Source of the DNA: Candidatus Altimarinota bacterium
GTDB lineage: Bacteria; Patescibacteriota; Gracilibacteria; UBA4473
DNA: 33,285 nucleotides
NCBI GenBank assembly: GCA_023143095.1
Contig: JAGLIF010000001.1
Span: 1 to 33,285, forward strand
Reading direction: 5' to 3'
The notes beneath the pieces are model-generated. The model did no database searches, was not told the origin of the DNA, and worked only from the letters and a program-made list of their open reading frames with translations. How positions within the stretch are numbered: the first letter of the stretch is position 1; each line of letters starts with the position of its first letter. Shown in pieces: positions 174 to 25,095 of the stretch. The position numbers and the translations under genes are program-made.

Positions 174-3100
174 ATGAAAAAATTATTTACTGCGACAATT
201 TGTCTTTTGCTTTTATTTGGATGTGAACTTCCTGAGAAACTTCCAAAGAAAGGGCTGGAAATTAGTTCCAATATTCAGAGTGAAAATATTAAAACAGAAG
301 AAAATACAAAACTTGTGTTTGTATCACCAAGTAATAATAGCACAGATGTTTTAGGAAAGACTCCCGTTACTTTTATGTGGGATAAACCGATTTTTGTGCT
401 TCAAAATGCAGAAAAATCACAGAAATGGCTCAAGAAAAATATTTCTATAACTCCTTCTATGAAAGGGAGTTGGCAAATACTTGGGACTATGGGGATTCTT
501 TTTGAACCAAAAGAAGAGTGGAAATATTCAACTCGTTATGAATTTAACATATCGAAAGAATTGGGGGGGGAGATAATTGAATATGCTTTTGACACTCCGC
601 TAGTAAAACTGAAAAAAATTGAAGCTAAAGAACTTATTTTTCGAAAACCTTTTTTAGTATATTTAAACCAATCGATACCCCTTGATGAAGCAAAAAAGTT
701 TTGGGTTAAGCCTGAAATAGAGTTTGTCGTTCAATATCATGAAAATGAAAAAACTCGCAAAAAAGATAAAACAATAATTGAGCTTATTCCTAAATCAGAT
801 TGGATAGAAAATACTCATTATACGCTAGGTATTCCTAAGTCAATACAGGGATTAGAAGGAAATCTTTCAACTTCTGTCGAGCAAACAAAAGATTTTAAAA
901 CAATTTCTCCATTTACCGTAAAATTTGGAAAAGGTTCAGGAACAGATGTTTTTCAAGATTTAAATCTAAGGTTTTCTTCTCAGGTATCTTACAATGATTT
1001 TTTAGATTTTATTCAGCTTGTTCCTATAGAAAGTTCTGAATGGGAAAGTTATATTGAAAAAGAAAAGGAGGAAACGGTTTCTCGTTTTGGAGAAGATTAT
1101 AAATCATACTATTTTAGAATACCTTCTCCATGGGCTCATTGGATACCGCAGAAAGAACAGACTCTTACTATAAAAAAAGGATTAAAAGATAAATATGGTC
1201 GAGTACTTAAAGAGGATAAGATTTATTCTTTTACTCCAAAATTTCCAAACACGGTTCGTTCAATTTTTTTCCCAAATGAAATAAAAACTTATCAGTTTGG
1301 GACAATTCCTAAATATTATATTTGGTATTCGGGAGAACATCGTAATGTTTCTTTTAAAATCGAACGAATTCCTCCAAAAAATTTCACTTTTGAAAAAAAT
1401 GTTTTTCATAAAAATTTCACATGGGAATCTCGTTTGGAAAGACGGCAAGTGGTGGAGTTTGATTTTGCTAAAGAATTTCCAGAGTTGGTAGATGAAAATA
1501 AATTGCTGGCTCCTGGTATATATAAAGTACAGCTTTTTTATACTCCCAATGGGAACAGTTATGCACGAACAATAACTTCAGAATTTGCTGTTTTGGATTT
1601 TCCAGTGGAACTCAAACAAACCGCAAACAATGAAATGATTGTTTATCCTGAAATTATAGAAGAAATTGTGGATATAGATATTTTTGTAAAACATTGGAAA
1701 TCAAGTTGTAATTGTCAGGTAATAGAACATGAAAGTTCACATAAAAATGTGACTGTACCGTTCAAATTTTCGATTGATAGAAACAAAAGATATGTTTTTG
1801 TCCGTAATGGTGATCAGATTGGAATTGGTTCAACCGAGTTTGAAAAAGGAATTCGACCTTATGATGCACCTATATCATTCAATCCATACAAGTATGGAGA
1901 AATTCTTACTAGTGAAGTTTTTTCTGATCGTCCGCTTTATCGTCCAGGAGATAAAGTATTTTTTAAGTCGATATTTCGTGAACGGTTATTTTTTGAAAAG
2001 GAATTCCCTTTAAAGGATATAGATTTGGATAAAGAGTATTCCTATCGAGTAAAAGTATTGGATGCTCAATACAAAGAAGTTTATTCAGAAAAATTTAAAA
2101 CGAATGGAGGGAGTTTGAATGGAGAATGGATTATTCCAAAAAATGGAGGATTGGGGCAGTATCAACTCATAATTGAATTTTTAGATTCAAAAGAGAAACA
2201 AATATTTCAGAAGCAGGTAAATTTTTATGTGACAGAATATCGGAAACCAACATTTTTAATTGATGCTGAATTTGATGATCTGCGTGCTATATGGAAAGAT
2301 GATATTTCTGCTGAAGTCTCTGCTGAGTATGCTTTTGGGGGAAAAATGGCAGGGAAAAAAGTGTCTTATCAAGTTTCTCTTTTTGGTCAAGAACAACAGC
2401 AATGGTACTGGCATAGAGGAACAAATAAAGATAAAATTTTAACGAAAGGAGAAACAATTTTAGATAAAAATGGAAAACTTTTTATTCCAATAAAATTAGA
2501 CTTTATTTTGGATGAAAAGATTGATTGGAATTTGGTAAATTTAAGTGTAACTGTGGAAGCTAGTCCTAGTGAAAAAAGTTCAAAAACTATATCGATTCCT
2601 TTTTATAATTCATCAGAAAAAATACAACTTGATAATGGAAGATATTTTTATAAAGCTGAGCATGAAAACATTGATGTTTTAGGGAAGATTACAGATTTGG
2701 ATGATAACTTTCTTGAAGATAAAGATATTACTATTCAGCTTTTTCAAACAAAGTGGGTTCGTAATGACAGAAGAAGTGGGAATGGTGATTTTGTTGGAGA
2801 ATGGCAGAGCACAGAAGTATTAATTCATGAAGAAGAAATTGAATCAAACGAGCAAGGGAAATTTTTAGCTCAAGTAAAAGTGCCAGAAGAGTCTGGGCAG
2901 TATTTTGTTCGTGTTATTTCCGAAGATAGAAAGGATCGGTTAGCAAAAGTAGAAAGACATTTCTGGGTTTGGACTGATAAACATGAACAGTTTAGTATGA
3001 GACAAAATGAAGTTAATCGTATTTTACCATTATTTTCTGATAAAGATGATTATCAAGTTGGAGAGGATATAGAGGTATTGTTTCCTCATAATAAATGGAA

Positions 3101-9299: not shown

Positions 9300-10073
9300 T
9301 TAAAGACAGTTTACTTCAAAAATCTTACAATGAGAAACATCATGTTTTTTAAGACTAAAAAAACAACTCCCACTTCCACACAAGTGAAAGTTTTTTAGAG
9401 TTAGTTTTTTTAAAATCATTTTGTATTTTTCCTCTTTTAAAAATTGATCAAACCCATTACCACATTTTTCAAGAGAAGGGTTTTGTAAAAAATCTTGTGT
9501 GAAATGAGTTCCCAAATTTTGAAGCGTTTGGTACATTTGGGCTGTAGCATTTTTAAAAGTTGGTTGATATATAAAGATAGGTGTTTTGGAAAAATTGAAA
9601 TTCAGAGGATTGATATCTTCTCCAAAGCTATTTCCAAGAGAACAAGAAGTTTTACCAAAAAAGAATGGAATATCTTTTCCAAACGACTTAGATGCTTCAA
9701 TGATAGAATTTGGAATTTGCCCCATATCAAAAAGTTGAAAGTAGAGTTGAATGAAGGTTGCAAAATTAGAACTGCCACCTCCAAGCCCGCTTTTTTCGGG
9801 AATGTTTTTTTTGATTTTTACTTTTACGGATTTTGCAGTTGAATAATTTTTTTGTACAAGTGAGAATGCCTTGTGGATTAGATTTTCTTCCATTTTACAA
9901 GAAAATTTTCCTTCAATTACAAAGGTAGAGTTTTCCACAATTTCTACTTTATCTACAAGCGAAATTTTATGAAAAATGGTTTTAAGTGGATGAAAATTTT
10001 CGCCTGTTTTTTTTCTAAAAACATCAAGAGTGAGGTTTATTTTTGCAGGAGAGAGTCCTTGTATTTTTTTCAT
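9300..10073 (-). CDS. ispE: 4-diphosphocytidyl-2-C-methyl-D-erythritol kinase
   Basis: Phosphorylates CDP-methylerythritol at the 2-hydroxyl with ATP, the fourth MEP-pathway step. A GHMP kinase: motif 1 SPAKINLTLDV is at residues 8-18, the glycine-rich ATP loop is PEKSGLGGGSSNF, and the third motif LCGSGSCFF is near the C-terminus. At 257 residues it is somewhat shorter than the usual 280-300. It is the last gene of the leftward MEP operon, 57 bases after ispDF. The gap includes AAGGTTGACTT, a weak match to the operator-like palindrome at 16203. Confidence 0.92.
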   Translation of the reverse strand: MKKIQGLSPAKINLTLDVFRKKTGENFHPLKTIFHKISLVDKVEIVENSTFVIEGKFSCKMEENLIHKAFSLVQKNYSTAKSVKVKIKKNIPEKSGLGGGSSNFATFIQLYFQLFDMGQIPNSIIEASKSFGKDIPFFFGKTSCSLGNSFGEDINPLNFNFSKTPIFIYQPTFKNATAQMYQTLQNLGTHFTQDFLQNPSLEKCGNGFDQFLKEEKYKMILKKLTLKNFHLCGSGSCFFSLKKHDVSHCKIFEVNCL

Positions 10074-10130
10074 ATATTTGATTTTAAAGACCGATTTTTG
10101 TAAAACAAGGTTGACTTCGCATATGTTAAG

Positions 10131-11327
10131 TTAAATAGTAATTAAGATTTCAACTAAACATTGAATTCCGAGTCCTTTTCCTGCATCACTCAAACCTTCT
10201 CCACTAGTATAAGTTAGTCCAATTTTGTCTTTTGAAATAGATAAGATTTTGGCACAATGATTGACAATGTTCTCGTGCATTGGGGATAAGTGTGGTGTTT
10301 TACACTCAAGAGAACAGATGACATTTTGAATTTCAAAGTTTGAAAACTTTTTTTGAGCAGTTTCTAGAGCTTTTTCAATATATTTTTGAGAATTAGTAAT
10401 ACCTTTTTGGCACATATTTGCGGCAAAAGTATCAAGTGTTTTTTCTCCTACTGCACTTAAAATTGCGTTACATAGTGCATGTAAAATCACATCTCCATCA
10501 GAATTGGCATGGAAACTTATCTGTTGTGGAAAAGTAATACCTCCCAAGATAACAGGTTTATGTGAATCATACTTTACAGCAAAACGATGAGAATCTTCGC
10601 CAACACCTATTCTAAAAGAACGGTTTGAGTCTTCTTTAAATGAGCTAAAATCTTGTGGGAAAGTGACTTTTTGATTATTAGGGTAACATTCATATACGAA
10701 AATTTTCTCATCAATAGTTTTAAGCAATTCAGCCTCGTCTCTTGGGATGTTTTTATCTTTTCTATCAAATGCTTCAAAGGCTTTGATAAAGGTTTTTAAA
10801 TCGGAGATTTGTGGCGTTTGTGTTTGGAATATTTCGTCACGGTTCAGTATTTTCACTACTTTTCCTTTGTGGACTTGTTTGATTGAATCTTTAGCAAAGA
10901 ATCCAAAAATTATATTTTTTTGTTTTTCGGCTAAGGCGATACCGGCTTTTAAATCGGAATTTGTTAAATTCGGATTGGCGCCATTGTGTACGATAATACG
11001 ACAATTTACTTTCTTTTTTATGTATTCAATAGCGTTTTTAAGTGAAAAAAAGCGTTGAGTACCGCCTGGCAAAATTTTTGAAATTTTTGGAAACTGTTTT
11101 TGTAATAGTATGGCATTTTCTTCAAAAGAATGTCTTCCTAAATTTGTTTCAGAATCTACTATTTTTTTAGTGCTAATTATCACAAGTATTTCATCAATTT
11201 TATCACATTGTTGAAAGGTTCTACAAGTTTGAAAAATTACAGGTTCGCCAAATTTGTTAGTGAATAATTTATCAAAGCCACATCTGACGGAATTTCCAGC
11301 AGCGAGGATGATCGCGATATTTCTCAT
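10131..11327 (-). CDS. ispDF: bifunctional IspD-IspF fusion
   Basis: Two MEP-pathway enzymes in one 398-residue chain. Residues 1-230 are IspD (CTP:methylerythritol cytidylyltransferase): nucleotide loop LAAGNSVRCGFDK, then ILNRDEIFQTQTPQ, DEAELL and NNQKVTFPQD. Residues 238-398 are IspF (cyclodiphosphate synthase), with zinc ligands in GVGEDSHRF (Asp245, His247) and His283 in SDGDVILHA. Both halves are divergent. The IspD motif usually VHDAARP reads VHNGANP (113-119). The IspF motif usually GDIGxxFPDTDPxxKGADS is replaced by an unrelated stretch at 293-313. The start ATG shares its A with the dxr stop (TAATG), and an AAGGAAAC Shine-Dalgarno lies within the end of dxr, so the two are translationally coupled. 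IspDF fusions are known in alpha- and epsilonproteobacteria. Confidence 0.9.
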   Translation of the reverse strand: MRNIAIILAAGNSVRCGFDKLFTNKFGEPVIFQTCRTFQQCDKIDEILVIISTKKIVDSETNLGRHSFEENAILLQKQFPKISKILPGGTQRFFSLKNAIEYIKKKVNCRIIVHNGANPNLTNSDLKAGIALAEKQKNIIFGFFAKDSIKQVHKGKVVKILNRDEIFQTQTPQISDLKTFIKAFEAFDRKDKNIPRDEAELLKTIDEKIFVYECYPNNQKVTFPQDFSSFKEDSNRSFRIGVGEDSHRFAVKYDSHKPVILGGITFPQQISFHANSDGDVILHALCNAILSAVGEKTLDTFAANMCQKGITNSQKYIEKALETAQKKFSNFEIQNVICSLECKTPHLSPMHENIVNHCAKILSISKDKIGLTYTSGEGLSDAGKGLGIQCLVEILITI

Positions 11328-12418
11328 TAAAGTTTCCTTATGAATTTTTGGGCGAGTACTCGCGCATTTTTATCAATTTCTAGGATTTTTTCCAATGAAT
11401 CTGGATTTTCGAGTTTAGTTTCATGGATTGTTTGTTCTAAAACATCAAAGATTTGGGAGAACAAAATCTTTTCGTTGAGGAAATTTTCTACGGCTATTTC
11501 GTTTGCAGCATTGAATACAATCGGAAAGTTTTGCATTTGTTCTGTACAGATTTCTAAGAGTTCAAGTGTTCGAAAGACTTTTTTGTCGGGTGTGCGGAAA
11601 CTTAGATCAAGATTGGAAAAAATTTGTCTTGGGAGATTATAATTTTCCCTTTTGGGAAAATTTAGTGCTAGGGCAATAGGGAGTTTCATCGTTGGTGGTG
11701 AGAGTTGTGCAATAATGGAACTATCAGGGAATTCAACCATCGAATGAACAATCGATTCTCGGTGAATGACAATCTGTATTTGATTTTTTGAAGCACCAAA
11801 TAGATGCATGGCTTCAAAAAATTCTAGACATTTATTTGCCAAAGTAGCTGAATCAATAGAAATTTTGGCTCCCATTGACCAATTAGGATGTTTGAGAGCT
11901 TGAGCGATCGTAATTTTTTCAAGATTCTTTTTTGTTTTACCCCAAAAAGGACCGCCAGAACAAGTCAAAATAATTTTTTTAAAATCAGTATGGGGTGAAG
12001 TATTAAGACACTGAAAAATGGCAGAATGTTCAGAATCAACTGGTAAAATTGGAGTTTTATTTTCTTGGGAAAGTTGCATGAGTAATTTGCCGCCGGCAAC
12101 CAAACTCTCTTTATTTGCAAGGGCAAGTGGTATCTTTTGTTGGAGTGTTTCTATAGAAAACTTTAATCCTGTGAAACCTACAATGGCATTAAGCACGATA
12201 TCTGGTTCACACTTTTTCAAAAAATCTGCATAATCAAAGGATTCTTTGGTATTGAGAAGATGGGGAATATTAAATTCTTGGGCAATGATTTCAAGTTCTG
12301 GAAAATGGGCATGTCCGCTTGCTCCGACAATTTTGAATTTATCGGGATTTTTTTTAACCAATTCGAAAGTAGATTTTCCAATAGATCCAGTGGCGCCAAG
12401 TAAACAAATTTTTTTCAT
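11327..12418 (-). CDS. dxr: 1-deoxy-D-xylulose 5-phosphate reductoisomerase
   Basis: Converts DXP to 2-C-methyl-D-erythritol 4-phosphate with NADPH, the second and committed MEP step. The NADPH-binding GATGSIGKSTFEL is at residues 8-20, followed by NAIVGFTGL and ALANKESLVAGG. Metal ligands are Asp128 and Glu130 (PVDSEHSAIFQ) and probably Glu202 (ANKCLEFFEA). The flexible loop is represented by HPNWSMGAKISIDSATL, with His177. The 363-residue length is slightly below the usual 380-400. The gene overlaps ispDF by one base and starts 38 bases after ispG. Confidence 0.95.
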   Translation of the reverse strand: MKKICLLGATGSIGKSTFELVKKNPDKFKIVGASGHAHFPELEIIAQEFNIPHLLNTKESFDYADFLKKCEPDIVLNAIVGFTGLKFSIETLQQKIPLALANKESLVAGGKLLMQLSQENKTPILPVDSEHSAIFQCLNTSPHTDFKKIILTCSGGPFWGKTKKNLEKITIAQALKHPNWSMGAKISIDSATLANKCLEFFEAMHLFGASKNQIQIVIHRESIVHSMVEFPDSSIIAQLSPPTMKLPIALALNFPKRENYNLPRQIFSNLDLSFRTPDKKVFRTLELLEICTEQMQNFPIVFNAANEIAVENFLNEKILFSQIFDVLEQTIHETKLENPDSLEKILEIDKNARVLAQKFIRKL

Positions 12419-12456
12419 AATGTTTTTATGAATTCATATTAATGGAATTCTTATTT

Positions 12457-13638
12457 TTAATCTTTATACTTTTCTTTGATATAATCTTCTAAAATTTTCA
12501 GAAATTTCTCTTCAATGTCATTTCCTTTGAGATTGCAGAGTTTTTTTCCATCTTGAAAGACTACGGCAAAGTTTTCTCCTCGACCAGGAAGTGAAATCCC
12601 AATATCACAGTGAGTGCTTTCTCCTGGTCCATTGACGACGCAACCCATGACTGCGATTTTGAGGTTTTCTATGCCTGGATATTTAGTTTTCCATCTAGTC
12701 AATTCTTGATCAATCTTTTTGTTCACACATTGAGTTAGTTTTTGAAAATAATCACCAGAGGTTCTGCCGCATCCAGGACAAGAAATCACTTTTGGTCGGA
12801 AATGTTTGAGTTCCAAGCTTTGTAAGATCATTTGAGCAACTTCCACTTCTTTTGTTCGTGAGGATTTTGGGGTGGGAGTGAGGGAAACTCGAAAAGTGTC
12901 GCCAATACCTTGTTGTAATAGAATGCTTAACGCAGAGGTGCTTTGGATAATCCCGGATTCACCACTACCGGCTTCGGTTAAGCCTAAATGCAATGCATAG
13001 TCAGATTTTTGAGCTAATGCTTCATATACTGCAATCATTTGCTGTGTTTGTGAAACTTTTCCTGAAAGCACTATCTGATTTTTGTTCAGACCTATACTTT
13101 CGGCTAATTTGGCAGAGGTTAAGCAGGATGCGATCATTGCTTCTACAAAAATTTCTTCAGAAGATTTAGTTTTAATATTTTTTTCAGTGAGCTTATTTAA
13201 AATTTTCTGATCAAGACTGCCCGAATTAACTCCAATTCGAATTGGCTTCTGATTTTTTAGGGCTATTTCGCACATTTCTCTAAAGTTTTTGTTATCAGCA
13301 TTGCCGGGATTGATACGATATTTATCTAAAAGTTGAGCACATTCGGGTACTTTTTGAAGTAACAAATTGCCATTGAAATGAAAATCTCCAACTAACGGAA
13401 CGCTAGACTTTTTTCTGACAATTTCAATGATTTTAGGTACGGCTAAAGCGGCTTTTATATCATTGATAGTAATTCGTACGATTTGTGCTCCAGCAGCGTT
13501 TAAATCTAATATTTGTTGAGAAGTTTCTTTTACATTTTCAGTAGGTGTATTGGTCATGGATTGTATCGCAATAGGAAAGTTTCCTCCGATAGAAATCGTA
13601 CCAATATTTACTGTATGACTTGTTCTTTGTTTTATCAT
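12457..13638 (-). CDS. ispG: 4-hydroxy-3-methylbut-2-en-1-yl diphosphate synthase (GcpE)
   Basis: Reductively opens MEcPP to HMBPP using a [4Fe-4S] cluster, the penultimate MEP step. The TIM-barrel part begins with IGGNFPIAIQSMTNT and includes GVNSGSLD and LHLGLTEAGSG. The C-terminal cluster domain has Cys287 and Cys290 (SCPGCGRTSGD), Cys333 (VMGCVVNGPGE) and Glu340 as the expected ligands. At 393 residues it is the short bacterial form without the plant insert. It sits 12 bases after the transporter gene and 38 before dxr, in the operon. It needs a flavodoxin or ferredoxin donor, which is not in the window. Confidence 0.95.
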   Translation of the reverse strand: MIKQRTSHTVNIGTISIGGNFPIAIQSMTNTPTENVKETSQQILDLNAAGAQIVRITINDIKAALAVPKIIEIVRKKSSVPLVGDFHFNGNLLLQKVPECAQLLDKYRINPGNADNKNFREMCEIALKNQKPIRIGVNSGSLDQKILNKLTEKNIKTKSSEEIFVEAMIASCLTSAKLAESIGLNKNQIVLSGKVSQTQQMIAVYEALAQKSDYALHLGLTEAGSGESGIIQSTSALSILLQQGIGDTFRVSLTPTPKSSRTKEVEVAQMILQSLELKHFRPKVISCPGCGRTSGDYFQKLTQCVNKKIDQELTRWKTKYPGIENLKIAVMGCVVNGPGESTHCDIGISLPGRGENFAVVFQDGKKLCNLKGNDIEEKFLKILEDYIKEKYKD

Positions 13639-13650
13639 TTTTTTTGTTTT

Positions 13651-15216
13651 TTATGGTCTTCGTTCAAAAACACTTTGTGGTACACCTACTTCTTCTGGAA
13701 AGTCTATATTATTTGGTTGTTTTTTCTTTTTCTTGGGTAAGAAAAGAAATACGGCAAGCAGAGGCATAAAGAATGAAATAATAATAACGGTGATAAGGAG
13801 AGAACCAAGATTATCATAATTTTGTGTTGAAAGAATCTCTCCTGCTTCATTTTGGACTTCTCGGGTAACGATAAAGATTTTATTGAGATATTTTGTAAAG
13901 AGGCTGCCAGCTGTCAAAGCTAGATTGGTGAAGCTGGCTCCAATTGCAAACCAAGTACCACGGTAGCCTTTTGGGGCATAAAACGCGATTAAACTGAGTA
14001 TCAAAACCATAGAAATATGGACAAGAGGACTAGAGAGTGCGGTATCAAATAATGCGATAGTTTGAGCATTCATACCAAGATATTCGTGGATACCAAAGTA
14101 CAATCCGAGTTCAGGCAAACTCATAATAGTTTCCACGAAAATAAGAAAAATAAGTACAGTTCGAAGTGGATATTTGGTGATAAAGCTAGAAAAAAGCCAT
14201 AAAATTGCTAGTGCGGTGGCTGCTCCAATTTGTGCTAAAACACCGAAAAATTTCTGATCAAATTCGAGGATATCGATGGTCCACCAGTTGAGTCCTGGAC
14301 CAACTGAAGGAGTTGCTCTATAGAGAAAAATGGCAGCCATAGCACCAAATAATACTTTCCATTGAGAACGCGGCAAGTGTCTGGCGACGAAAAAGAGCAT
14401 GGTAGATAACAGTATAAAGGAAACGATGAATACGATTTCTTGTGAAAAAGGGAAATCATTTATTCCCATAAATATGGAAAAAGCACCAAAAGCGATTCCG
14501 CCGCCGAATATTTTATAGTCGAGAGGGGGAATGAGTTTGTCTTCAAATTTTTCGAGTTTCACAAAAAGTGCTCCCAAAATAGAAATGATTGGAATGATAA
14601 GTGTAGACCAGAAAATAGATTCATACGAAAATGTTGCGGCTAACCAACCTCCTAGTCCTGCTACGGCGAATCCAGCTACCGATAATGCTAAGCGACCAAG
14701 AACCTGCACCATAGCGATTTCAGACTGTATTTCTTCTTCTGTTTTGTTTTCTGTTTCTACCACTTCTGTTGTCATAGTATCTGCTGTCACATCTTGGATC
14801 ACAAATCCGAGAGTTGAAAAGAGCAGAGAAAGTAAATATAGGGAATATTCTGAACCCAATGTCATGAAAAAAGAATATCTTCCTGCGAGTCCTGCTAGCA
14901 AAATACTTCCCAAAATCATGAAAAAAGCACCAATTAAAATATAAATTTTTCGGCGAGAACCGAAGATTTTAACTGAATCCACCATTTGACCAAAGACCAT
15001 TTTGACAGTCCAAGGAATCATTATCCACACAGAAATAGCAATAAGTTGCTGTGCAGATAAGCTTATAGTTTCTTTTTCCCAAAAACTTAGAGCAATAGCT
15101 GAAAAAGCCGAAGCACCATAAGAAAAATAAATAAATAGCAGAGGAATATAGCGTTTTTTGCACGCACGAATAGGTGTTAAAAGAGCTTTGTCGAGTGCAT
15201 GTAGGAGAAAATTCAT
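13651..15216 (-). CDS. BT1-family (folate/biopterin-transporter-like) MFS protein
   Basis: A 521-residue membrane protein with about 12 predicted helices. The first half carries the signature IPWTVKMVFGQMVDSVKIFG followed by RRKIYILIG, close in pattern to the [21 protein letters not shown] region of BT1 (PF03092) transporters. Parts of the motif AxSFWxKE before it also fit. The substrate cannot be read from sequence: eukaryotic and cyanobacterial members move folates or pterins. The gene lies between ispH and ispG with gaps of 19 and 12 bases, so it is co-transcribed with isoprenoid synthesis. It may move a related metabolite, but that is inference. The C-terminus is a charged tail starting at LPKKKKK. 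Confidence 0.75.
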   Translation of the reverse strand: MNFLLHALDKALLTPIRACKKRYIPLLFIYFSYGASAFSAIALSFWEKETISLSAQQLIAISVWIMIPWTVKMVFGQMVDSVKIFGSRRKIYILIGAFFMILGSILLAGLAGRYSFFMTLGSEYSLYLLSLLFSTLGFVIQDVTADTMTTEVVETENKTEEEIQSEIAMVQVLGRLALSVAGFAVAGLGGWLAATFSYESIFWSTLIIPIISILGALFVKLEKFEDKLIPPLDYKIFGGGIAFGAFSIFMGINDFPFSQEIVFIVSFILLSTMLFFVARHLPRSQWKVLFGAMAAIFLYRATPSVGPGLNWWTIDILEFDQKFFGVLAQIGAATALAILWLFSSFITKYPLRTVLIFLIFVETIMSLPELGLYFGIHEYLGMNAQTIALFDTALSSPLVHISMVLILSLIAFYAPKGYRGTWFAIGASFTNLALTAGSLFTKYLNKIFIVTREVQNEAGEILSTQNYDNLGSLLITVIIISFFMPLLAVFLFLPKKKKKQPNNIDFPEEVGVPQSVFERRP

Positions 15217-15235
15217 AGTTATTTATTAGTGTTTG

Positions 15236-16165
15236 CTATATTTGAGGGAGAGGGAAGGTAACTGTTTCGTCGAAAATTTTTATTTCTTCTATTTTTAAAT
15301 GATCTTGTTTTATTTTAAAGATTTGGATTATATTTTCTACTAAAATTTCTGGTACGGAGGCACCAGAAGTTAGACCAATCTTTTCATATTGGAAGATTTG
15401 GTCATTGATGGATTCGGCATTTTCAAAAAGTTGAGAAGGACATCCTAGTTGTTGTGCGGTGGTAACGAGTTTATTTGAGTTAGAAGAATTTTTTGAGCCA
15501 ATGACAGCTATAAAATCGCAAATTTCAGCCAAATTTTTGACTGCTTTTTGTCGATTAGTAGTGGCATAACAAATATCTTCTGGTGTGCGGACATGTGGAA
15601 TTTTTTGTTTGAGTGCCTTTAAAATCGATTGTGTATCATCGACAGAAAGAGTAGTTTGAGAAAGACAAACTACGCGTGTGTTTTTAAAATTTTGAGATTT
15701 GAGTTTTTCAACACTTTCAAGGTTTTCTAAAAGCTCAATATTTCCGATTCCCTTAACGCCTAAAAATTCTTGATGGTCTTTTTGTCCGATATAAAATATT
15801 TTTTGTCTTTCTTCTGCAAACTTTTGAGCTTCCCAATGGACTTTGGTTACGAGAGGGCAAGTAGCATCAATGATTTTGAGTTTTTTTTCTTCCGCTTTGA
15901 TTCGAAATTGTGGTGAAACTCCATGAGCTGAAAAGATATAAATAGAATGAGAAGGGATTTCTTCTAAATTATCGGTAAAAATAACGCCTTGGCGTTTGAA
16001 ATTGTTCACCACAAATTGATTATGAACGATTTCGTGGTTTACATAGAGAGGTGTTCCGAATTTTTTAAGGGCTTTTTCAACTGTCAAAATCGCACGATTT
16101 ACGCCAGCACAAAATCCGCGAGGAAAGGCAAGAAAAAGTGTTTTAGAAGACATTAAAGTAATCAT
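15236..16165 (-). CDS. ispH: 4-hydroxy-3-methylbut-2-enyl diphosphate reductase
   Basis: The last MEP step: reduces HMBPP to IPP and DMAPP with a [4Fe-4S] cluster. Cluster cysteines are Cys19 (PRGFCAGVNRA), Cys103 (DATCPLVTKVH) and Cys199 (DICYATTNRQ). Substrate residues include His44, His81 (SAHGVSP), His131/Glu133, Thr172, the SSNSNKL loop and Ser268 (LTSGASVPE). The 309-residue length is typical. The start could be the ATG at 16165 or the one at 16153; neither has a Shine-Dalgarno. It is the first gene of the leftward MEP operon, with a promoter at 16183-16210. Confidence 0.96.
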   Translation of the reverse strand: MITLMSSKTLFLAFPRGFCAGVNRAILTVEKALKKFGTPLYVNHEIVHNQFVVNNFKRQGVIFTDNLEEIPSHSIYIFSAHGVSPQFRIKAEEKKLKIIDATCPLVTKVHWEAQKFAEERQKIFYIGQKDHQEFLGVKGIGNIELLENLESVEKLKSQNFKNTRVVCLSQTTLSVDDTQSILKALKQKIPHVRTPEDICYATTNRQKAVKNLAEICDFIAVIGSKNSSNSNKLVTTAQQLGCPSQLFENAESINDQIFQYEKIGLTSGASVPEILVENIIQIFKIKQDHLKIEEIKIFDETVTFPLPQI

Positions 16166-16182
16166 TATTTAAAGTTAGTGGA

Positions 16183-16210
16183 ATTATAGGGTTTTATAAA
16201 TAAAGGTCGA
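16183..16210 (-). promoter_or_regulatory. promoter of the leftward MEP operon
   Basis: On the minus strand TCGACC (16205-16210) is followed after 16 bases by a perfect TATAAT (16183-16188), placing the transcription start near 16176, a few bases before ispH. The -35 region lies within the palindrome at 16203-16214, so a protein bound there would block or modulate this promoter. Confidence 0.6.
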
Positions 16211-16214
16211 CCTT
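16203..16214. promoter_or_regulatory. operator-like palindrome AAGGTCGACCTT
   Basis: A perfect 12-base palindrome in the divergent region between ispH and dxs, overlapping the -35 of the ispH promoter. A near copy (AAAGTCGACCTT) occurs inside the HU promoter at 32306-32317. An intergenic palindrome in an AT-rich genome, shared by two promoters, suggests a transcription-factor site. The factor is unknown. Confidence 0.45.
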
Positions 16215-16292
16215 GGAAACATTTTTGTTTTTTTTCAGTATTTCTTTAACATATTTCTATATTTTGAATTATTCATTAAGCTATTAGTGTTT

Positions 16293-18224
16293 ATGAAAGA
16301 TGCTTCAAATATTTTGAAAACAGGAACCTATTTGAAAAAAATAGATTTACCAGAAGATTTGCGAACTTTTAAAGTATCGGATTTACCAAATATTTGTGCT
16401 GATTTAAGGAATTTTATCATTGATAATGTAGCAGATAATGGAGGGCATTTCGGATCTAGTTTGGGAGTGGTGGAGCTTACGGTGGCACTTCATTATGTGT
16501 TTAATACACCAGAAGATAAGATTGTTTGGGATGTTGGACATCAGGCTTATGGACATAAAATTTTAACTGGGCGTCGAAAAAAGTTTCATACTAATAGAAA
16601 AAAAGGTGGTTTGAGTGGTTTCCCGAAAAAATCAGAAAGTGAGTATGACAGTTTCGTGGCAGGACATTCTTCAATCTCGATTTCAGCTGCATTGGGGATG
16701 GCAACTGCTTCGTGTTTAAAGGGGGAGAATCGCCGACATATTGCTGTGATAGGGGATGGAGCATTGACGGGAGGGGTAGCATTTGAGGGTCTTAATAATG
16801 CAGGGGTTTCAGAAGCAGATTTATTGGTTGTGCTTAACGATAATCAGATTTCTATTGATCCAAATGTAGGTGCTTTGAAAAATTATATGTTTAAGTTAAC
16901 GAAGTCAAAATCCTTCAATTATCTGCGTCGAAGTATCAAAGATGCCTTACAAGGAACGGGGAAAATGGGTGGGAATGTGGACAGATTTGCTGCAAAAATT
17001 GAGCAGCAGTTTAAAAATCTTTTGTTGAAGGAGCATAATTTTTTTGAAGTACTTAATTTTCGATATTTTGGTCCTTTTGATGGACATGATGTTGAAAATT
17101 TGGTGAAGGAACTTGAAGTTATCAAAAAGTATCCAGGTCCCAAAATTTTGCATATTTTGACGACGAAAGGAAAGGGTTTTATGCCAGCAGAAAAAGAGCA
17201 AACCAAGTGGCATTCGACGAATGGGTTTAATCAGCAAGAAGAACATAAAAATTTAAAATTTCCAAATAAATTAGAAGGAATATTGGTTAAAAATGATGGA
17301 ATTTTGAAGTACCAAGAGGTTTTTGGGCATACTTTGGTGGAATTGGCAGGGAAAGATAAAAATATTGTGGGGATTACTCCAGCTATGCCGACAGGATCTT
17401 CGCTTAATTTGATGATGAAAATATTTCCAAAGCGAGCATTTGATGTGGGGATTTGTGAACAACATGCGGTAACTTTTGCTTCAGGATTGGCTAGCGAAGG
17501 ATTGATTCCGTTTTGTGCGATTTATTCGTCTTTTGCTCAAAGAGCGTATGATCAAATTATTCATGATGTTTGTATTGAATCTACTCCGGTTATTTTTTGT
17601 TTAGATCGAGCTGGGTTAGTTGGGGAAGATGGTGAAACACATCATGGAGTTTTTGATATGGCTTATTTGAGACTGCTTCCGAATTTGATTATAGCAGCTC
17701 CGATGAATGAAATTGAGTTGCGAAATCTTATGTATACAGCTTATAAAAACCGAAAAGCGCCTTTTGCAATCAGATATCCACGAGGGAAAGGAGTAAAGAA
17801 AGATTGGAAAAAACCGTTTGAAATTATAGAGATTGGAAAAGGAGAAAAAGTTTCGGATGGAAAAGGAACAGCAATTTTATCCTTTGGACATCCTGGTAAT
17901 TTTGTAATAGAGGCTAAAAAGATATTAGAAACCAAAAAAAGTAATCCAGCACATTTTAATATGCGGTTTGTAAAACCATTAGACGAAATCCTTTTGCATG
18001 AGGTGTTCAAACAGTTTGAAAAAATTATTACGGTTGAAGATGGAAGCAAAAAAGGTGGTGCGGGTTCGGCAGTGTTGGAATTTGCTGCAGAAAATGGCTA
18101 TAAAAATAGCGTGAAGATATTGGGTATTGGTGACGAATTTATTAAACATGCAACAGTGGAACAACAACAAAAAGCATGTGGATTTGATATAGAAGGGATT
18201 GTAACTGCGGTGATAGAGAAATAA
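16293..18224 (+). CDS. dxs: 1-deoxy-D-xylulose-5-phosphate synthase
   Basis: Condenses pyruvate and glyceraldehyde 3-phosphate to DXP with thiamine diphosphate, the first MEP step and also the source of DXP for cofactor synthesis. Present are the N-terminal GHFGSSLGVVELTVALH and WDVGHQAYGHKILTGR, the ThDP/Mg motif GDGALTGG (from about residue 154) to LNDNQISI, catalytic Glu389 in ICEQHAVTFASG, and DRAGLVGEDGETHHGVFD. The 643-residue length is typical (about 620-640). I use the ATG at 16293; an in-frame GTG lies two codons earlier. It is divergent from the ispH operon, with 127 bases between the starts. Confidence 0.97.
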   Translation: MKDASNILKTGTYLKKIDLPEDLRTFKVSDLPNICADLRNFIIDNVADNGGHFGSSLGVVELTVALHYVFNTPEDKIVWDVGHQAYGHKILTGRRKKFHTNRKKGGLSGFPKKSESEYDSFVAGHSSISISAALGMATASCLKGENRRHIAVIGDGALTGGVAFEGLNNAGVSEADLLVVLNDNQISIDPNVGALKNYMFKLTKSKSFNYLRRSIKDALQGTGKMGGNVDRFAAKIEQQFKNLLLKEHNFFEVLNFRYFGPFDGHDVENLVKELEVIKKYPGPKILHILTTKGKGFMPAEKEQTKWHSTNGFNQQEEHKNLKFPNKLEGILVKNDGILKYQEVFGHTLVELAGKDKNIVGITPAMPTGSSLNLMMKIFPKRAFDVGICEQHAVTFASGLASEGLIPFCAIYSSFAQRAYDQIIHDVCIESTPVIFCLDRAGLVGEDGETHHGVFDMAYLRLLPNLIIAAPMNEIELRNLMYTAYKNRKAPFAIRYPRGKGVKKDWKKPFEIIEIGKGEKVSDGKGTAILSFGHPGNFVIEAKKILETKKSNPAHFNMRFVKPLDEILLHEVFKQFEKIITVEDGSKKGGAGSAVLEFAAENGYKNSVKILGIGDEFIKHATVEQQQKACGFDIEGIVTAVIEK

Positions 18225-18227
18225 TAA
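18199..18227 (+). promoter_or_regulatory. weak candidate promoter at the end of dxs
   Basis: TTGTAA (18199-18204) and TAATAA (18222-18227), 17 bases apart, overlap the dxs stop and would start transcription near 18234, just ahead of the structured segment 18279-18450. Matches of this quality arise by chance in AT-rich DNA. Confidence 0.25.
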
Positions 18228-18278
18228 ACAAAGTTATTTATTAGTTATTCATCAGAAAAACCAGGTACAAAAAAACAC

Positions 18279-18450
18279 CGACAAAAGAAAGTCGATTCAA
18301 AAAAGTTGAAGATGGAATAAAGGTGAATTCAAGCGGAAAACTTCGATGTCTTTAATGAAGAGAGAAGTTTTCCGCGGAGAATTCAGGGATAACTAGCCCC
18401 GAAACTCTCGCCTTGCTTGGGTAAAAATAACCGATTCACCTACGGAATCC
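18279..18450. other. structured intergenic segment, possible RNA
   Basis: No protein gene is seen. A hairpin with a 12-bp perfect stem (18333-18344 with 18364-18375, arms GCGGAAAACTTC and GAAGTTTTCCGC) is flanked by GAATTC on both sides. It is enclosed by an 8-bp pairing AGGTGAAT (18321-18328) with ATTCACCT (18434-18441). A smaller CGAC/GTCG hairpin lies at 18279-18294. The segment is richer in G and C than its surroundings, as structured RNAs are in AT-rich genomes. I compared it by eye with tmRNA, RNase P RNA, SRP RNA, 6S and common riboswitches and found no match. The transcribed strand is not settled. Confidence 0.35.
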
Positions 18451-18472
18451 TTGTTGTAAGTTTGTGATTTTT

Positions 18473-18501
18473 TTGACAATAAAGTTAAAAAATGATAAAT
18501 T
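18473..18501 (+). promoter_or_regulatory. strong promoter upstream of unknown transcript
   Basis: TTGACA (18473-18478, perfect -35), a 17-base spacer and TAAATT (18496-18501) give a predicted start near 18508. It is the best -35 match found in the window, and no recognised gene follows for 700 bases. This favours a non-coding RNA or short-ORF transcript. Confidence 0.6.
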
Positions 18502-18680
18502 ACGGATTGAAAAGTAAAACCTCGAAAACGATTTGAGAAAAAGGGCGGCTTAAAGAGTCGTCCTTTTAGACAAAGGTTTTTTAAATTAAGACACTTTTTC
18601 TTCTTCGTTTTGTGAGAGGGGATCTAGAAAAGTAGTAAATGCTTTAGAGACCTCATCGCAAAGCGGAGAGAAAAGAGTAA

Positions 18681-18830
18681 ATGAAAACTCATTTTCGAAT
18701 CGACCAACGGATCAGATTTTACGAGAAAAAAAGAAACACGAAGGAAGAAAAAAAGAAAATGAGTTCCGAACAAAATGAAATCGATGAAGTGATCCAGAAA
18801 CATTACAATAAAGTAATGAAAAGCCGATGA
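18681..18830 (+). CDS. short ORF, 49 aa, basic
   Basis: ATG at 18681 to TGA at 18828-18830, encoding 49 residues rich in Lys, Arg and Glu. The C-terminal half is an amphipathic helix pattern (SSEQNEIDEVIQKHYNKVMK). GGAGAG lies 11-16 bases upstream, a loose Shine-Dalgarno. Its stop overlaps the start of a second short ORF (ATGA). Against it: it lies inside the proposed structured RNA, and its 5' end is the arm of a long inverted repeat. Codon use (ATC, TAC, CGA) is less A/T-biased at third positions than neighbouring genes. No homology is recognised. Confidence 0.3.
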   Translation: MKTHFRIDQRIRFYEKKRNTKEEKKKMSSEQNEIDEVIQKHYNKVMKSR

Positions 18831-18997
18831 GAACCATATTTTCAAATTATAAACCTGAAAAAACTCGTTTATGCACTCAAAGGAGAAAGGAACCTTCTAT
18901 TTTGGTTTTATTTTTATTTTCGGAAATGAAAGTGGGAGCTTTCATTTCATTTACTCGTTTCTCTCCACGGAAATTGAATTGTAAAAGATCGATTTGA
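18827..18997 (+). CDS. short ORF, 56 aa, overlapping the previous ORF
   Basis: Starts at the ATGA overlap with the 49-residue ORF and ends at TGA 18995-18997. The product is basic at both ends with a hydrophobic centre (PSILVLFLFSEMKVGAF), so it could be a small membrane-associated peptide. The 3' half coincides with a 10-bp hairpin and the long inverted-repeat arm, so it may be only an open frame within a structured RNA. Confidence 0.2.
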   Translation: MRTIFSNYKPEKTRLCTQRRKEPSILVLFLFSEMKVGAFISFTRFSPRKLNCKRSI

Positions 18998-19146
18998 TTG
19001 GTTTTGAGCACTATCCGCTTGTTTTTATTAATTTCTAAGCGAAGTGTTCAGAGTATCTTACTAAATAAAAAAACAAATGTCAAAACTTTTTTAGAGAAAG
19101 TATATTATCTAGAATAGAAATTTAATTTGAAGGCGAAGATTTTTTC

Positions 19147-19175
19147 TTGAGAAAAGAGTTTTTTTATGGTACAAT
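19147..19175 (+). promoter_or_regulatory. promoter of unknown operon A
   Basis: TTGAGA (19147-19152), a 17-base spacer and TACAAT (19170-19175) lie 30 bases before the start codon at 19205. The spacer end and -10 (TTTTTATGGTACAAT) are almost identical to the promoter of operon B (TTTTTATGGTATAAT at 27569-27583), so the two unknown operons probably share promoter control. Confidence 0.7.
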
Positions 19176-19204
19176 GAAAGGATAGTTTTAAAATTATCCC
19201 TTAT

Positions 19205-19522
19205 ATGGCTGATTTAAAAGCAGAAGCGATTATTCTCATAGGACAAAGTAATTTTATTCCAGAGGAAGCTCAAAAGAATGAGTGGATTGATAAAATTGTA
19301 CCGCAGATGACAGAGAAAGATTTAGCAAAGTTCATTGCTATGCTTGAAGAGGGGGTAGCTATTGAAGCAAAGGAGCTTGAAATATTAAAAGAAAAATATA
19401 CCAAAGCCCAAACACTTCTCAGACAAGTGCAAACCTATTCACGAGTAAAGAAAGAAGAAAAGGATCATTCAAAAGAACTAGATTCTCTTGAAGAACTCGA
19501 AGCTGAGCTTGATGACATTTAA
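19205..19522 (+). CDS. small acidic hypothetical protein, 105 aa
   Basis: First gene of operon A. It is soluble and helical, with no signal peptide. The central part (EWIDKIVPQMTEKDLAKFIAML) has the same spacing of aromatic, Met and acidic/Gln residues as the 147-residue protein at 31212 (QYWFNLTEVMNMDQTEKLRNIL). Both end in an acidic Leu-rich tail (EELEAELDDI here, EEDLLGELNNL there), so I infer distant paralogy. It is followed after 24 bases by the large gene at 19547. Function unknown. Confidence 0.78.
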   Translation: MADLKAEAIILIGQSNFIPEEAQKNEWIDKIVPQMTEKDLAKFIAMLEEGVAIEAKELEILKEKYTKAQTLLRQVQTYSRVKKEEKDHSKELDSLEELEAELDDI

Positions 19523-19546: not shown

Positions 19547-21943
19547 ATGAAATTACTTTTTTCCCAACTGAGAATAGATAATACAAAATTTATATTTATG
19601 GGGTCTGATATTCCAGATTTTCAGGAGCAGGTAGATGCGGCAAAGAAGACAGTGATAGGCTCCAATGGAAAGAGTCATACGGAGACAAAAATAAATCAAA
19701 CTATTGATGAAATAGCACGGAGATTGAAGAGATTGCCTGATGAAGGTTCTAAAAAAACAAATTTTTTGCAAGAATTACAAAATTTAGATATGGAATTAGA
19801 AAAAACTCAAGAGACATACGACCAGAATGAAAAAAAGATAAATAAACTCAAAGAAAAATATTTAGGGATAACTGGTGAGCAGTTCAAAGAAAGGTTTGAT
19901 GTATTTGTGGATGATGTTGATTTTAAACATGACTGGAAAAATGACTCGAATTATCGGCAGGATCAAGTGAGATTTAGATTATTAAAGAAATCAGCAGGAG
20001 ATTTACCAGATGGTGTGGAGAAAAACTCATTGCAAGCAAACCAATATTTTGCTGAATTGCAAACAGTATTTGAAGAGATGATGGATAAGGCTGATGAGGG
20101 GTTTTGGGATTCTGTTGATAGGATGGAATTAAATAATATTATTAGAGACTTTGAAAAAGAAAAAGAAGAACTTCAGAAGAAGTATTTTTCGCCAAAAGAA
20201 GTAAAACCAGAACCAGTAGTAAAAGTAGAACCAGTAAAAGTAAAACCAGTAAAAGTAGAACCAGTAAAAGTAGAACCAGTAAAAGTAGAACCAGTAAAAG
20301 TAGAACCAGTAACACCAGAACCAGTAGTAGAAGTAGAATCAAACAAACACAACACGGTTAGAGACCAGATAGCACAATCTCTCATTAATAAAATTGAAGA
20401 AGATGAAAATTTCGATTTTACTAAAGAAAAATACACTGTAGAAGATGGTGATAATCTTTCACGGATTGCCTTTGGATTTGATAAAGCCGCTACGGCGAAA
20501 TGGAAAGGAGAAGAAGAAAATGTAGGTAAAGAAATAGATCATTCAAAAAAAGATATTAATATCAATTGGAATACAAAAGTGATTTTGTCAGATGGAACGA
20601 ACACAACTTTTGAAACGACTTTGACTAATGCTAAATTGATTCATCCAGGAGATATTGTTTCTTTTACCAAAACGAATGGTGAAACAGTGATTCATATTGA
20701 GAAAATAAGGGAATTATCACAAAAACCAAAGGTAAATAAACTAGACTTAAAAAAAGAATTAAAATTGGAACAACGAAAGGAAAAAATGAAACAAATAAAT
20801 AAAAAGAAACTAGAAGTGAAACAAAAAGCAGAAATTGAAAAAATAGAAGAAAAATATAATTTAGAACATATAGAAGAAGATGTTTATATTTCAAATAGCG
20901 AAAATGTAGAAGATATAGCGGCAATAGCTGAAAGAGCAAAAGTAGCTTCAGCTGTGGTTTTGAAGGAAGCAAAAAAGGCTATTGTAAATGGGGCAGGCTT
21001 AGATAGTCCTAATCTTAGTGGGAGAAAAGTGGCGAAAGAGCTAGGTATAAAAGATATTAGAAGCACTTCATTGGAACAACAGTTAGGAAAAGTTACAGGA
21101 GAGATTGAGCTTGATCTTGATGAGATTATGGGAGGGACTAATAATTTTTATGAAGGAATAAATGTAACGGGTATTCGTCTAACAAATGCTCGGTATATAA
21201 ATACAAAAGAACTTGGAGCAGATTTACTAAAAAATGGATTTATCGTGGATGTACAGGTACCTGGTGAAGAAAAGACAATGATTCGTATTGGAGGTGATCA
21301 GTTGCAGAAAAGTGGTGGAAATGAGTTTGTAAAACAGTTGCAAGCAGGAAAAGAAAATGAAGCAGCTTTTCAAAAACTTTTAGTACAAAATTTGCCGTTT
21401 GTTCAAAGTGAATTGGCATTTAAAAATATTCAGACAATTAAGAAAGAAGGAGGGTTTGATGAATATAAAAAGATTAATAGCTTTGTGAAAGATTTTCTCG
21501 TGCAGGCATGTGGTTTTGATGGAGATATGGAGGATATCATTGGAGATGAAGTCGAAAAAGAAAAATTCAAAATATATGGAAATAAGGTTCAGTTTGGACT
21601 TGATTGGGAAGGTGTGGATTATGGATCAGGGGAAAATGATGCATTTGTAACCATTACAAAAGTAGAGGGAGGAATGCCAAAAGTTACAGTACAGAGTTAT
21701 GGTGTTGGAATAGATGCAAATGATCTTGATAATTTATTAAAAAGAGATTTAACTAGAGAATTTCAATTAAAGGAAGTAAAAGAGATGTTAGCATTTGGGA
21801 AAAACAGAGGAAATAAAAGAACTCTTGATGGAAATATAGCAACAGGACTCCAAGAGGCACGAGCATCACATCGAGCTTGGAAACGGTTAGAAAAGGCTAT
21901 ATCGAAACAAGAAAGGGCAAAGGATTTAGATGGCCAACAATAA
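19547..21943 (+). CDS. large hypothetical protein with VKVEP repeats and LysM-like segment
   Basis: A 798-residue acidic protein without a clear signal peptide or membrane helix. In order: a helical N-terminal part; a Pro-Lys-Val-Glu linker made of six 15-base repeats (residues 225-254, VKVEP or VKVKP); a LysM-like segment at about 296-372 starting YTVEDGDNLSRIAFGFD and ending IHPGDIVSF, with an insertion in the middle; a Lys/Glu coiled coil (about 395-435); and a mixed alpha/beta C-terminal region. The ATG at 19547 gives a hydrophobic start unlike its presumed relatives. The ATG at 19598 (MGSDIPDFQ) is a plausible alternative. It ends 10 bases before the end of the convergent secF. The LysM reading is moderate and the overall function unknown. 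Confidence 0.8.
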   Translation: MKLLFSQLRIDNTKFIFMGSDIPDFQEQVDAAKKTVIGSNGKSHTETKINQTIDEIARRLKRLPDEGSKKTNFLQELQNLDMELEKTQETYDQNEKKINKLKEKYLGITGEQFKERFDVFVDDVDFKHDWKNDSNYRQDQVRFRLLKKSAGDLPDGVEKNSLQANQYFAELQTVFEEMMDKADEGFWDSVDRMELNNIIRDFEKEKEELQKKYFSPKEVKPEPVVKVEPVKVKPVKVEPVKVEPVKVEPVKVEPVTPEPVVEVESNKHNTVRDQIAQSLINKIEEDENFDFTKEKYTVEDGDNLSRIAFGFDKAATAKWKGEEENVGKEIDHSKKDININWNTKVILSDGTNTTFETTLTNAKLIHPGDIVSFTKTNGETVIHIEKIRELSQKPKVNKLDLKKELKLEQRKEKMKQINKKKLEVKQKAEIEKIEEKYNLEHIEEDVYISNSENVEDIAAIAERAKVASAVVLKEAKKAIVNGAGLDSPNLSGRKVAKELGIKDIRSTSLEQQLGKVTGEIELDLDEIMGGTNNFYEGINVTGIRLTNARYINTKELGADLLKNGFIVDVQVPGEEKTMIRIGGDQLQKSGGNEFVKQLQAGKENEAAFQKLLVQNLPFVQSELAFKNIQTIKKEGGFDEYKKINSFVKDFLVQACGFDGDMEDIIGDEVEKEKFKIYGNKVQFGLDWEGVDYGSGENDAFVTITKVEGGMPKVTVQSYGVGIDANDLDNLLKRDLTREFQLKEVKEMLAFGKNRGNKRTLDGNIATGLQEARASHRAWKRLEKAISKQERAKDLDGQQ
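20219..20308 (+). repeat. six tandem 15-bp repeats (VKVEP linker)
   Basis: In-frame copies of GTAAAAGTAGAACCA, one with a single change giving VKVKP, encode a stiff proline-rich linker between the helical and LysM-like parts of the protein. Copies 3-6 are identical in DNA, so copy number probably varies by replication slippage without breaking the frame. Confidence 0.9.
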
Positions 21944-22905: not shown

Positions 22906-25062
22906 TTATTTTTTTCGTTTTCGGATTTTAGCTCCGATTTCTTTTTTTCCTATATCAGACTCGTTTACGCCAAAGAGAGATGCTTTTTGAAGGGGTTTAA
23001 AGAGCAAGAAAAATCGAATTAAGTTTCGTGAAATAATAATAGCAGTAAACATCGATAAAAGTGTTCCAACAATCAAAGTAATAGCGAATCCTTTGATAAT
23101 AGAACTTCCAATGAAAAAGAGAATGAGACAGATAAGAAGTGTCGTGAGATTGGAATCTCGAATCGCTGTCCAAGCTCGTTCAAAACCAAGATCAATTGCT
23201 TGAAGTAAACTACGACCTCTTCGCAGTTCTTCTTTCATTCGTTCAAAAATTAAGATGTTTCCATCTACCGCAAGTCCTACAGAAAGTGCAATACCAGCTG
23301 CTCCAGCTAGACTCAAAACAATCGGACCTCCAAAACTTTCTGGCCAAATTTTAAGAATCATAATGAACATTCCTGCGTAGATTATTAACGAAAGAGAAGC
23401 GATAATACCAGCAAATCGATAAAATATAATCATGAAGATCATAGTAGCTAAGAATCCAAAGGCTCCAGCTTTGAGACTTTTTTGTAATTGATTTTTTCCA
23501 AGTTCGGCTTGAATTGTTGTTTGTCCGCTCAAAATTACTGGAGCATCAATAGCACCCAAGTTTAATCCATCAGCCAGTTCATGTGCTTCTTCGAAAGTGA
23601 AGTTTCCAGTAATTTGAGAGTTTCGACCTATAATTTTTTCTCGAACGGTTGGTTGTGTGAGCCAAATACCGCCTACTTTGATTCCCAGTCGACAAGGATT
23701 TTCACCACAACTTTTTGCTGAAACTCTTCCAGTAATTTCTCCAAAAAGATTACCTCCCTCTTCATCAAATCGAAGATTTACCATTGCGTTTCCTACTTGA
23801 TCAAATCCTACGGAAGCAATATCAAGTTGTGCGCCGCCGAGAGATGTAGGCATCCAGTTCATGTTAGACTTGTCCCAAGAGATGAGTTCGTATCCTACTT
23901 TTGGTTCTTGTATTTTTTCAACTCTTTCTTTAGTAATACTTTGTACTTCAATGATATGAAATCCAAAATCAGTTTCTACAATATTTTGTACGAGTTGAGG
24001 AGTTTCAAGTGAAAAAACAGCCTCTTCAAAAGGAGCAGCCATGGTTCCTTTTTTAAAAGTTCCAAGATCACCACCCATTTCTTTACTTGGTCCAGTGGAA
24101 AATTCTTGAGCTAGTTTTGCAAAATCTTCTTCATTTTTCAATTGTTCCAAAAGTTCTTCTGCTTTGGTTTTAGCTTCTTCGGCAGTTTTGTATGGTACAT
24201 CGTCTCCTGCTCGCATTGCGCCTGTGTAGGCCAATAAAATATGTCTGGCACTTGCCTCAGCAGGGATTGTTTGTTCTCTTTCCTCGATTTCTTTCGTTGT
24301 TACTCGAGCGATGGTTAAAACTTCTCTAGGGTATGGCATGCCCTCAAATTTAATTTGTCCATCTTCTCCTATTTTATAGATAGGATCGATTCTAGTATCG
24401 ATTATTGTTTGTAAAATTTGTCCAGGAGTAGCGGCTAACAATTTGTCTGCAAAATCAGTATCAGAAAAAGCGTTTTTAAAAACTGGATCAAATATTTCAT
24501 ATTTTACAATTTTATTCTCCTTTTCGAGTTCTTTTGCTTTTGTAATAAAATTTGTATTGTTAATTTTTGTTAATTCTGAAGCAATTTTTATTCGAAATTC
24601 ATTTTCTAGCTCAGGATTTTCCTCGAAGAATTCAAGTCGATTATCCTTTTCAGCATCTTTTTTAGCTTTTTTGACATCCGTATTTGGTGGCATTTGAATA
24701 AGTACATGTTCCTCATTATTCATAGAAGACAATTTTACGATAATTTCTCCGACACCAGCAGGATTAACTCGTCGTTCAAGAGCATCTCTCACGGATTCTA
24801 CAATACTAGTGAGATTGAGATTATTTTGAGGATCATCGTCTGAATTTTGTGCGATAGCATCGGAAAGATCAATACGATAATCAAGTTCAGTTCCGCCTGC
24901 AAGATCTAGACCAAGTGCGATTTCGAATTCACTGAGTTTGTTAACGAATACTGAATCTTCGCCAAATATCTTTCCCCAATATTGAGAAGGAATAGCAAAA
25001 AAGCTAGTGAGAAAGATGATTCCAACAATAAATAAAAAACGGTTTATGATCTGCTTTTTCAT
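22906..25062 (-). CDS. secD: SecD with an inserted parvulin-type PpiC domain
   Basis: Protein translocase subunit SecD, 718 residues from the ATG at 25062 (the frame is open 6 codons further, to a TTG at 25080). After TM1 comes GLDLAGGTELDYRID (about 51-65), then the P1 domain with RRVNPAGVGE. The C-terminal half has five helices with LAVDGNILIFERMKEELRRG, the SecD motif. Residues about 269-376 form a parvulin peptidyl-prolyl isomerase domain: ASARHILLAYTG, DFAKLAQEFSTGPS, GGDLGTFKKGTM, PFEEAVFSL and DFGFHIIEV. The insertion faces the extracytoplasmic side, so the translocon carries its own proline isomerase. This makes the protein longer than E. coli SecD (about 615). Confidence 0.95.
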   Translation of the reverse strand: MKKQIINRFLFIVGIIFLTSFFAIPSQYWGKIFGEDSVFVNKLSEFEIALGLDLAGGTELDYRIDLSDAIAQNSDDDPQNNLNLTSIVESVRDALERRVNPAGVGEIIVKLSSMNNEEHVLIQMPPNTDVKKAKKDAEKDNRLEFFEENPELENEFRIKIASELTKINNTNFITKAKELEKENKIVKYEIFDPVFKNAFSDTDFADKLLAATPGQILQTIIDTRIDPIYKIGEDGQIKFEGMPYPREVLTIARVTTKEIEEREQTIPAEASARHILLAYTGAMRAGDDVPYKTAEEAKTKAEELLEQLKNEEDFAKLAQEFSTGPSKEMGGDLGTFKKGTMAAPFEEAVFSLETPQLVQNIVETDFGFHIIEVQSITKERVEKIQEPKVGYELISWDKSNMNWMPTSLGGAQLDIASVGFDQVGNAMVNLRFDEEGGNLFGEITGRVSAKSCGENPCRLGIKVGGIWLTQPTVREKIIGRNSQITGNFTFEEAHELADGLNLGAIDAPVILSGQTTIQAELGKNQLQKSLKAGAFGFLATMIFMIIFYRFAGIIASLSLIIYAGMFIMILKIWPESFGGPIVLSLAGAAGIALSVGLAVDGNILIFERMKEELRRGRSLLQAIDLGFERAWTAIRDSNLTTLLICLILFFIGSSIIKGFAITLIVGTLLSMFTAIIISRNLIRFFLLFKPLQKASLFGVNESDIGKKEIGAKIRKRKK

Positions 25063-25095
25063 GCGATATTTAAATAACAAAAATTTTTCTGTGGG

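Follow-up and report, generated by a model that had tools for sequence, protein, structure and literature searches.

Our analysis indicates that positions 18225-19204 of the window (the whole 33,285-nucleotide stretch analysed here, which is an entire contig of the 1.2-Mb genome G000) are an RNA locus, neither a protein gene nor empty spacer. Judged from its sequence, the locus is a previously unlisted class of structured RNA. The explanation that we favour, with a probability of about 0.6, is that it specifies a large structured minus-strand RNA and an overlapping partner from the opposite strand, acting as an RNA with a built-in antisense. Large structured RNAs are uncommon in bacteria and frequently prove to have unusual functions.

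Coding content and folding of the region

The region lies between dxs (16287-18224) and a 105-amino-acid ORF (19205-19522). The original prediction, made from the same DNA, described it as lacking any recognisable gene, and this was borne out: the ORFs within it are short, the longest being a minus-strand frame of 73 amino acids with a TTG start. A protein-coding locus was rejected for this reason, with code 25 also considered. Stops are mostly TAA, and the genes recognised by Pfam are close to full length when read with table 11, which indicates that the standard code is used.

The segment 18260-19060 folds at -230.9 kcal/mol, compared with -168.9 +/- 4.7 kcal/mol for dinucleotide shuffles, and its z-scores against such shuffles are -13.2 on the plus strand and -6.2 on the minus strand. 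The predicted 22-base arm (18665-18686 with 18945-18966) is present and 95% complementary, and the stem proposed inside it (AACTCATTTTC / GAAAATGAGTT) was found in the minimum-energy fold.

Distribution and genomic setting

A DNA search found conserved blocks of the locus in genomes of the same order. R1, a covariance model of the central block, gave strong matches in 12 of 20 genomes of the order, including two (G012 and G018) outside its training set. R2, the model of the left block, revealed four more genomes, none of them used in building it (G001, G004, G006 and G015; E 1e-7 to 1e-15), and the loci of these four, when read, contain the remaining motifs. Altogether, copies were detected in 16 of the 20 sampled genomes of this order (Candidatus Gracilibacteria), with one or two per genome; no copy was found in the other four, three of which are at least 91% complete. 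Since most of the genomes sampled from this CPR order, which has reduced genomes, have retained the locus, it is likely to be important there, and its covariance models would fill annotation gaps in Gracilibacteria.

Beyond the order, no convincing copy was found among the 353 genomes searched in the class (order included), nor in a sample of 380 genomes of the phylum. Scanned for a pattern, the named genomes yielded 14 contigs, nine labelled Candidatus Gracilibacteria and two others labelled as an unnamed or uncultured bacterium. The last three belong to other groups; we regard them as chance matches, and R2 gave no hit there. Weak R1/R3 hits in G001, G002, G003, G009, G059 and G088 were judged false, as they fall mostly in coding DNA and none is accompanied by the flanking motifs.

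The second copy in G000 (contig C11, 1526-2393) follows leuS and is 95% identical across about 850 bases. The presence of two such similar copies in one genome would fit a cis-acting leader or the remnant of a mobile element, and not a free-standing RNA gene, but we consider this very improbable: the neighbouring genes differ among copies, four genomes have the downstream gene in reverse orientation, the region is not bounded by terminal inverted repeats, and no copies were found in viral contigs or in phage and plasmid records. Several genomes have a divergent gene upstream. Five genomes have the locus before a ruvB-like gene (identified by eye), a placement that looks like shared ancestry. 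As no neighbouring gene is constant, the minus-strand RNA would be free-standing and act in trans.

Two other arrangements were observed among the copies. G007 (L039, 4300-5300) has two tandem copies of the element, the upstream one without the P3 end described below, and in G001 (L110) several short AAAATCCCGCGAAATTTT-type repeats surround the element, some of them directly beside its terminator.

Conserved helices and covariation

About ten helices recur among the copies and show compensatory changes, which argues for a real structured-RNA locus. Their positions in the window are as follows.

18333-18344 / 18364-18375: hairpin HP1; its stem has 14 different sequences among 16 copies and is paired in every one
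18386-18400: hairpin HP2, with a conserved 7-nt loop (plus strand URACYAG); 15 copies show 13 different stems, paired in every copy
18420-18445: proposed H-type pseudoknot, S1 18420-18423/18437-18440 and S2 18431-18433/18443-18445
18446-18508: arm Px, enclosing the promoter P2; outer helix 18446-18450/18504-18508, inner helix 18456-18459/18500-18503
18470-18478/18484-18492: end hairpin of arm Px
18525-18531/18605-18611: helix PA, enclosing PB
18537-18543/18594-18600: helix PE, enclosing PB
18543-18550/18556-18563: hairpin PB
18623-18648: hairpin PC; each of 14 copies has its own stem sequence, with 95% pairing
18655-18670: most conserved block, plus strand ATCGCAAAGCGGAGAG, near-invariant
18665-18966: long hairpin PD, whose arms (18665-18686 / 18945-18966) are those of the 22-base pairing given above
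19006-19012 / 19043-19049: terminal helix PF, at the 5' end of the minus-strand RNA; 12 copies, 100% paired when matched and 52% when swapped

Compensatory changes in the relatives exceeded both the shuffle and the slide controls. In the R2 alignment, 94.9% of the structure cells are paired, compared with 24-49% when slid, and the outer helix of Px has two-sided changes at five of its five pairs. The 18-copy alignment gave 89.5% against 20-48%, a figure that leans towards structure because this alignment was fitted to the model. The pseudoknot cells are paired in 92% (S1) and 100% (S2) of cases with a two-sided change at one pair in each, most of its pairs being invariant across copies. In PD, G001 and G015 share a compensatory change from GGAGAG/CUCUCC to AGAAAG/CUUUCU; in these two genomes ATCGCAAAGCGGAGAG became GCAGAAAG and the partner strand changed to match.

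We assigned the strands of HP1, HP2, PA, PE, PB, PC, PD and PF by eye before checking them, and hand assignment inflates the matched pairing, so that the values of 94-100% for own strands and 43-76% for strands swapped between genera have to be read with this bias; for PA, PE and PB they are 96-99% and 47-65%. The duplex energies of flanked windows favoured own strands on average, and swaps were better for some copies. For this reason, we base the claim of structure on the tests that use alignments, on the compensatory change in PD and on the independent hits of the models.

An ORF of 49 amino acids (18681-18830) lies in the loop of PD. It is open in both G000 copies with a few amino-acid differences, and no counterpart was seen when the relatives that were read were inspected by eye.

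Promoters, terminator and predicted transcription units

The signals and the RNAs predicted from them are the following.

19055-19083, minus strand: promoter P3, TTGACA (19083-19078), 17 nt, TAAGAT (19060-19055), start at about 19048
18269-18294, minus strand: intrinsic terminator, CGAC/GTCG stem followed by U7
18473-18501, plus strand: promoter P2, TTGACA (18473-18478), 17-nt spacer, TAAATT (18496-18501), start at about 18508
18269-19048, minus strand: predicted main RNA of ~780 nt, from P3 leftward to the left terminator
18508-19048, plus strand: predicted opposite-strand RNA from P2, extending at least through PB (~18563)

A promoter scan identified the conserved right-hand block as the minus-strand promoter P3. 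TTGAC is separated from TAnnnT by 17 nt in 16 of the 17 copies examined, with exactly this spacing in all 16, and P3 was not found in G014; an A-rich tract (19084-19095) lies upstream of it. At the other end, 15 of the 17 listed copies have a U-rich tail after the leftmost hairpin as read on the minus strand, the other two being G016, where the contig starts, and G014, where the position is outside the extract. The left-end hairpins have the minus-side U-run even in copies without one on the plus side. The conserved promoter at the right and the terminator at the left suggest that the main transcription unit is probably one minus-strand RNA of ~780 nt, from about 19048 to 18269, and structure is conserved along this length.

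The TTGACA-17-TAAATT plus-strand promoter of the original prediction corresponds to P2; it is present and conserved across relatives. Over 17 copies, A-11 and T-7 are found in 17 and T-12 in 15, and positions -8 to -10 vary; the -35 scores sum to 87 at spacings of 16-18 nt, compared with 42.7 +/- 3.8 in shuffles, and P2 is weak in G008 and G019. P2 faces P3, both being conserved, and is predicted to fire the opposite way from inside the minus-strand unit. One could suppose that the minus-strand RNA alone exists and that the P2-like boxes simply result from the RNA sequence of arm Px, as P2 is wholly within this covarying arm and its -35 forms a local hairpin. We regard this as improbable, because A-11 and T-7 are invariant while the positions between them vary, the -35 score at the proper spacing is far above that of shuffles, and in every genus PB keeps G.U pairs that would become A.C when read from the minus strand. 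The idea of a single-stranded-DNA promoter was also considered, and no supporting geometry was found.

These results change the division and the strand of the RNAs that had been proposed. Two RNAs (18.23-18.46 and 18.51-19.0 kb) are not supported, as Px spans their border (18446-18459 with 18500-18508) and covaries, and RNAs starting at the plus-strand promoter do not agree with a right end that is a minus-strand promoter and a left end that is a minus-strand terminator. The original prediction was therefore right on the kind of element and wrong on its strand and division. A long plus-strand RNA from a promoter upstream of HP1 was rejected, since no promoter above chance was found there within about 110 nt.

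Strand of the folded RNA

Raw folding energy was rejected as a guide to the strand, as shuffles show an equal strand difference; the z-scores favour the plus strand in both halves of the locus for most of 11 copies. A strand-neutral count of wobble pairs gave 38 G.U on the plus strand to 5 for PB, and 7 on the plus strand to 29 on the minus strand for PD. Counted by genus, the plus-to-minus ratio is 12:0 in PB and 0:8 in PD. The wobble pairs of PF fall on the plus strand, and Px leans to plus-strand wobble pairs although it lies before the start point of P2, a result that the two-promoter model leaves unaccounted for.

An alternative is that the functional product is a single plus-strand structured RNA from P2, with P3 as a regulating antisense promoter and the left third as antisense RNA. 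The wider margin of the plus strand over shuffles, the wobble pairs of PB and PF, and unpaired conserved blocks that are A-rich on this strand, as in many RNAs, agree with it. We nevertheless find it unlikely, because P3 is stronger, better conserved and paired with a terminator, whereas the right end of the locus in the window showed no terminator on the plus strand; the wobble pairs of PD favour the minus strand in each of the 8 genera counted; and HP1, HP2, the pseudoknot and Px would fall outside such an RNA.

The simplest model that fits the wobble pairs of both PB and PD is that RNAs from the two strands exist and fold. It is quite possible, though somewhat less likely than not, that selection acts separately on the folds of two overlapping opposite-strand RNAs, with some helices tolerating G.U only as plus and others only as minus. 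To our knowledge, a two-way structured RNA gene of this kind would be unlike any known class.

In the favoured reading of a minus-strand RNA with an opposite-strand partner, P3 would drive the folded RNA of ~780 nt, and P2 would drive a second RNA, starting at the border of arm Px, with complementarity to the 5' portion of the first. The plus-strand RNA may pair with the nascent or finished minus-strand RNA, or the two promoters may interfere, and either process could set the amount or the fold of the long RNA. Our guess is that this long RNA, alone or together with protein, serves as a scaffold or regulator and not as a cis-acting switch. The two conserved facing promoters make the locus a concrete, testable case of a structured RNA with its own opposite-strand partner.

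Comparison with known RNAs

Neither strand of the stretch matched an Rfam family at the gathering score, a permissive search of both strands gave weak hits at chance level, and no family matched in 15 loci including relatives. The expectation of a multi-branched structured RNA of an unrecognised class thus held, given this result and the covariation in relatives. The covariance models of RNase P, tmRNA and 6S did not match the locus, and the genome has its own copies of these RNAs elsewhere (C8:86959, C11:169258 and C6:48779, respectively), so that a known housekeeping RNA was rejected. We found nothing relevant in the literature on structured RNAs of Gracilibacteria or CPR.

OLE, GOLLD and ROOL resemble the locus in being non-coding and several hundred nucleotides long, with many conserved helices and a low copy number per genome. 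GOLLD combines a well conserved part with a variable one (PMC12286853), and so does the locus. In contrast to these three RNAs, the locus reached neither their Rfam gathering thresholds nor a match in the permissive both-strand search, is restricted to one Gracilibacteria order in the searches made, has a conserved promoter for the opposite strand and shows no link to phages or tRNA arrays. A locus of this size and complexity, present once or twice per genome, would suit a divergent form of one of these ornate RNAs, or of RNase P, tmRNA or 6S; with no Rfam match in the window or the 15 loci and separate housekeeping RNAs in the genome, there is very little chance of this. 6S RNA is likewise a stand-alone structured RNA, but differs in size and fold.

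ColE1 RNA I / RNA II and CopA / CopT are plasmid antisense pairs transcribed from facing promoters in one short region. The locus is similar in its facing promoters and in the long structured RNA and opposite-strand structured RNA predicted from them. It differs in being chromosomal and in its longer possible overlap, and it shows no evident link to a plasmid or a replication gene, nor any sign of replication control; by eye, no replication or toxin gene was recognised beside it, and its neighbours vary.

Other features of the window

Upstream of the element, 9300-18224 holds a nearly complete MEP isoprenoid cluster (GHMP kinase, an IspD-IspF fusion, DXR, GcpE, LytB and DXS), together with a BT1/MFS transporter, in this CPR-like genome of 1.2 Mb. 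Downstream, 19547-21943 is an ORF of 798 amino acids without a Pfam match. An alpha-2-macroglobulin-type protein of 1873 amino acids is encoded at 174-5795, and a SecD-like protein at 22906-25080 contains an internal PpiC-type rotamase domain (residues 271-381).
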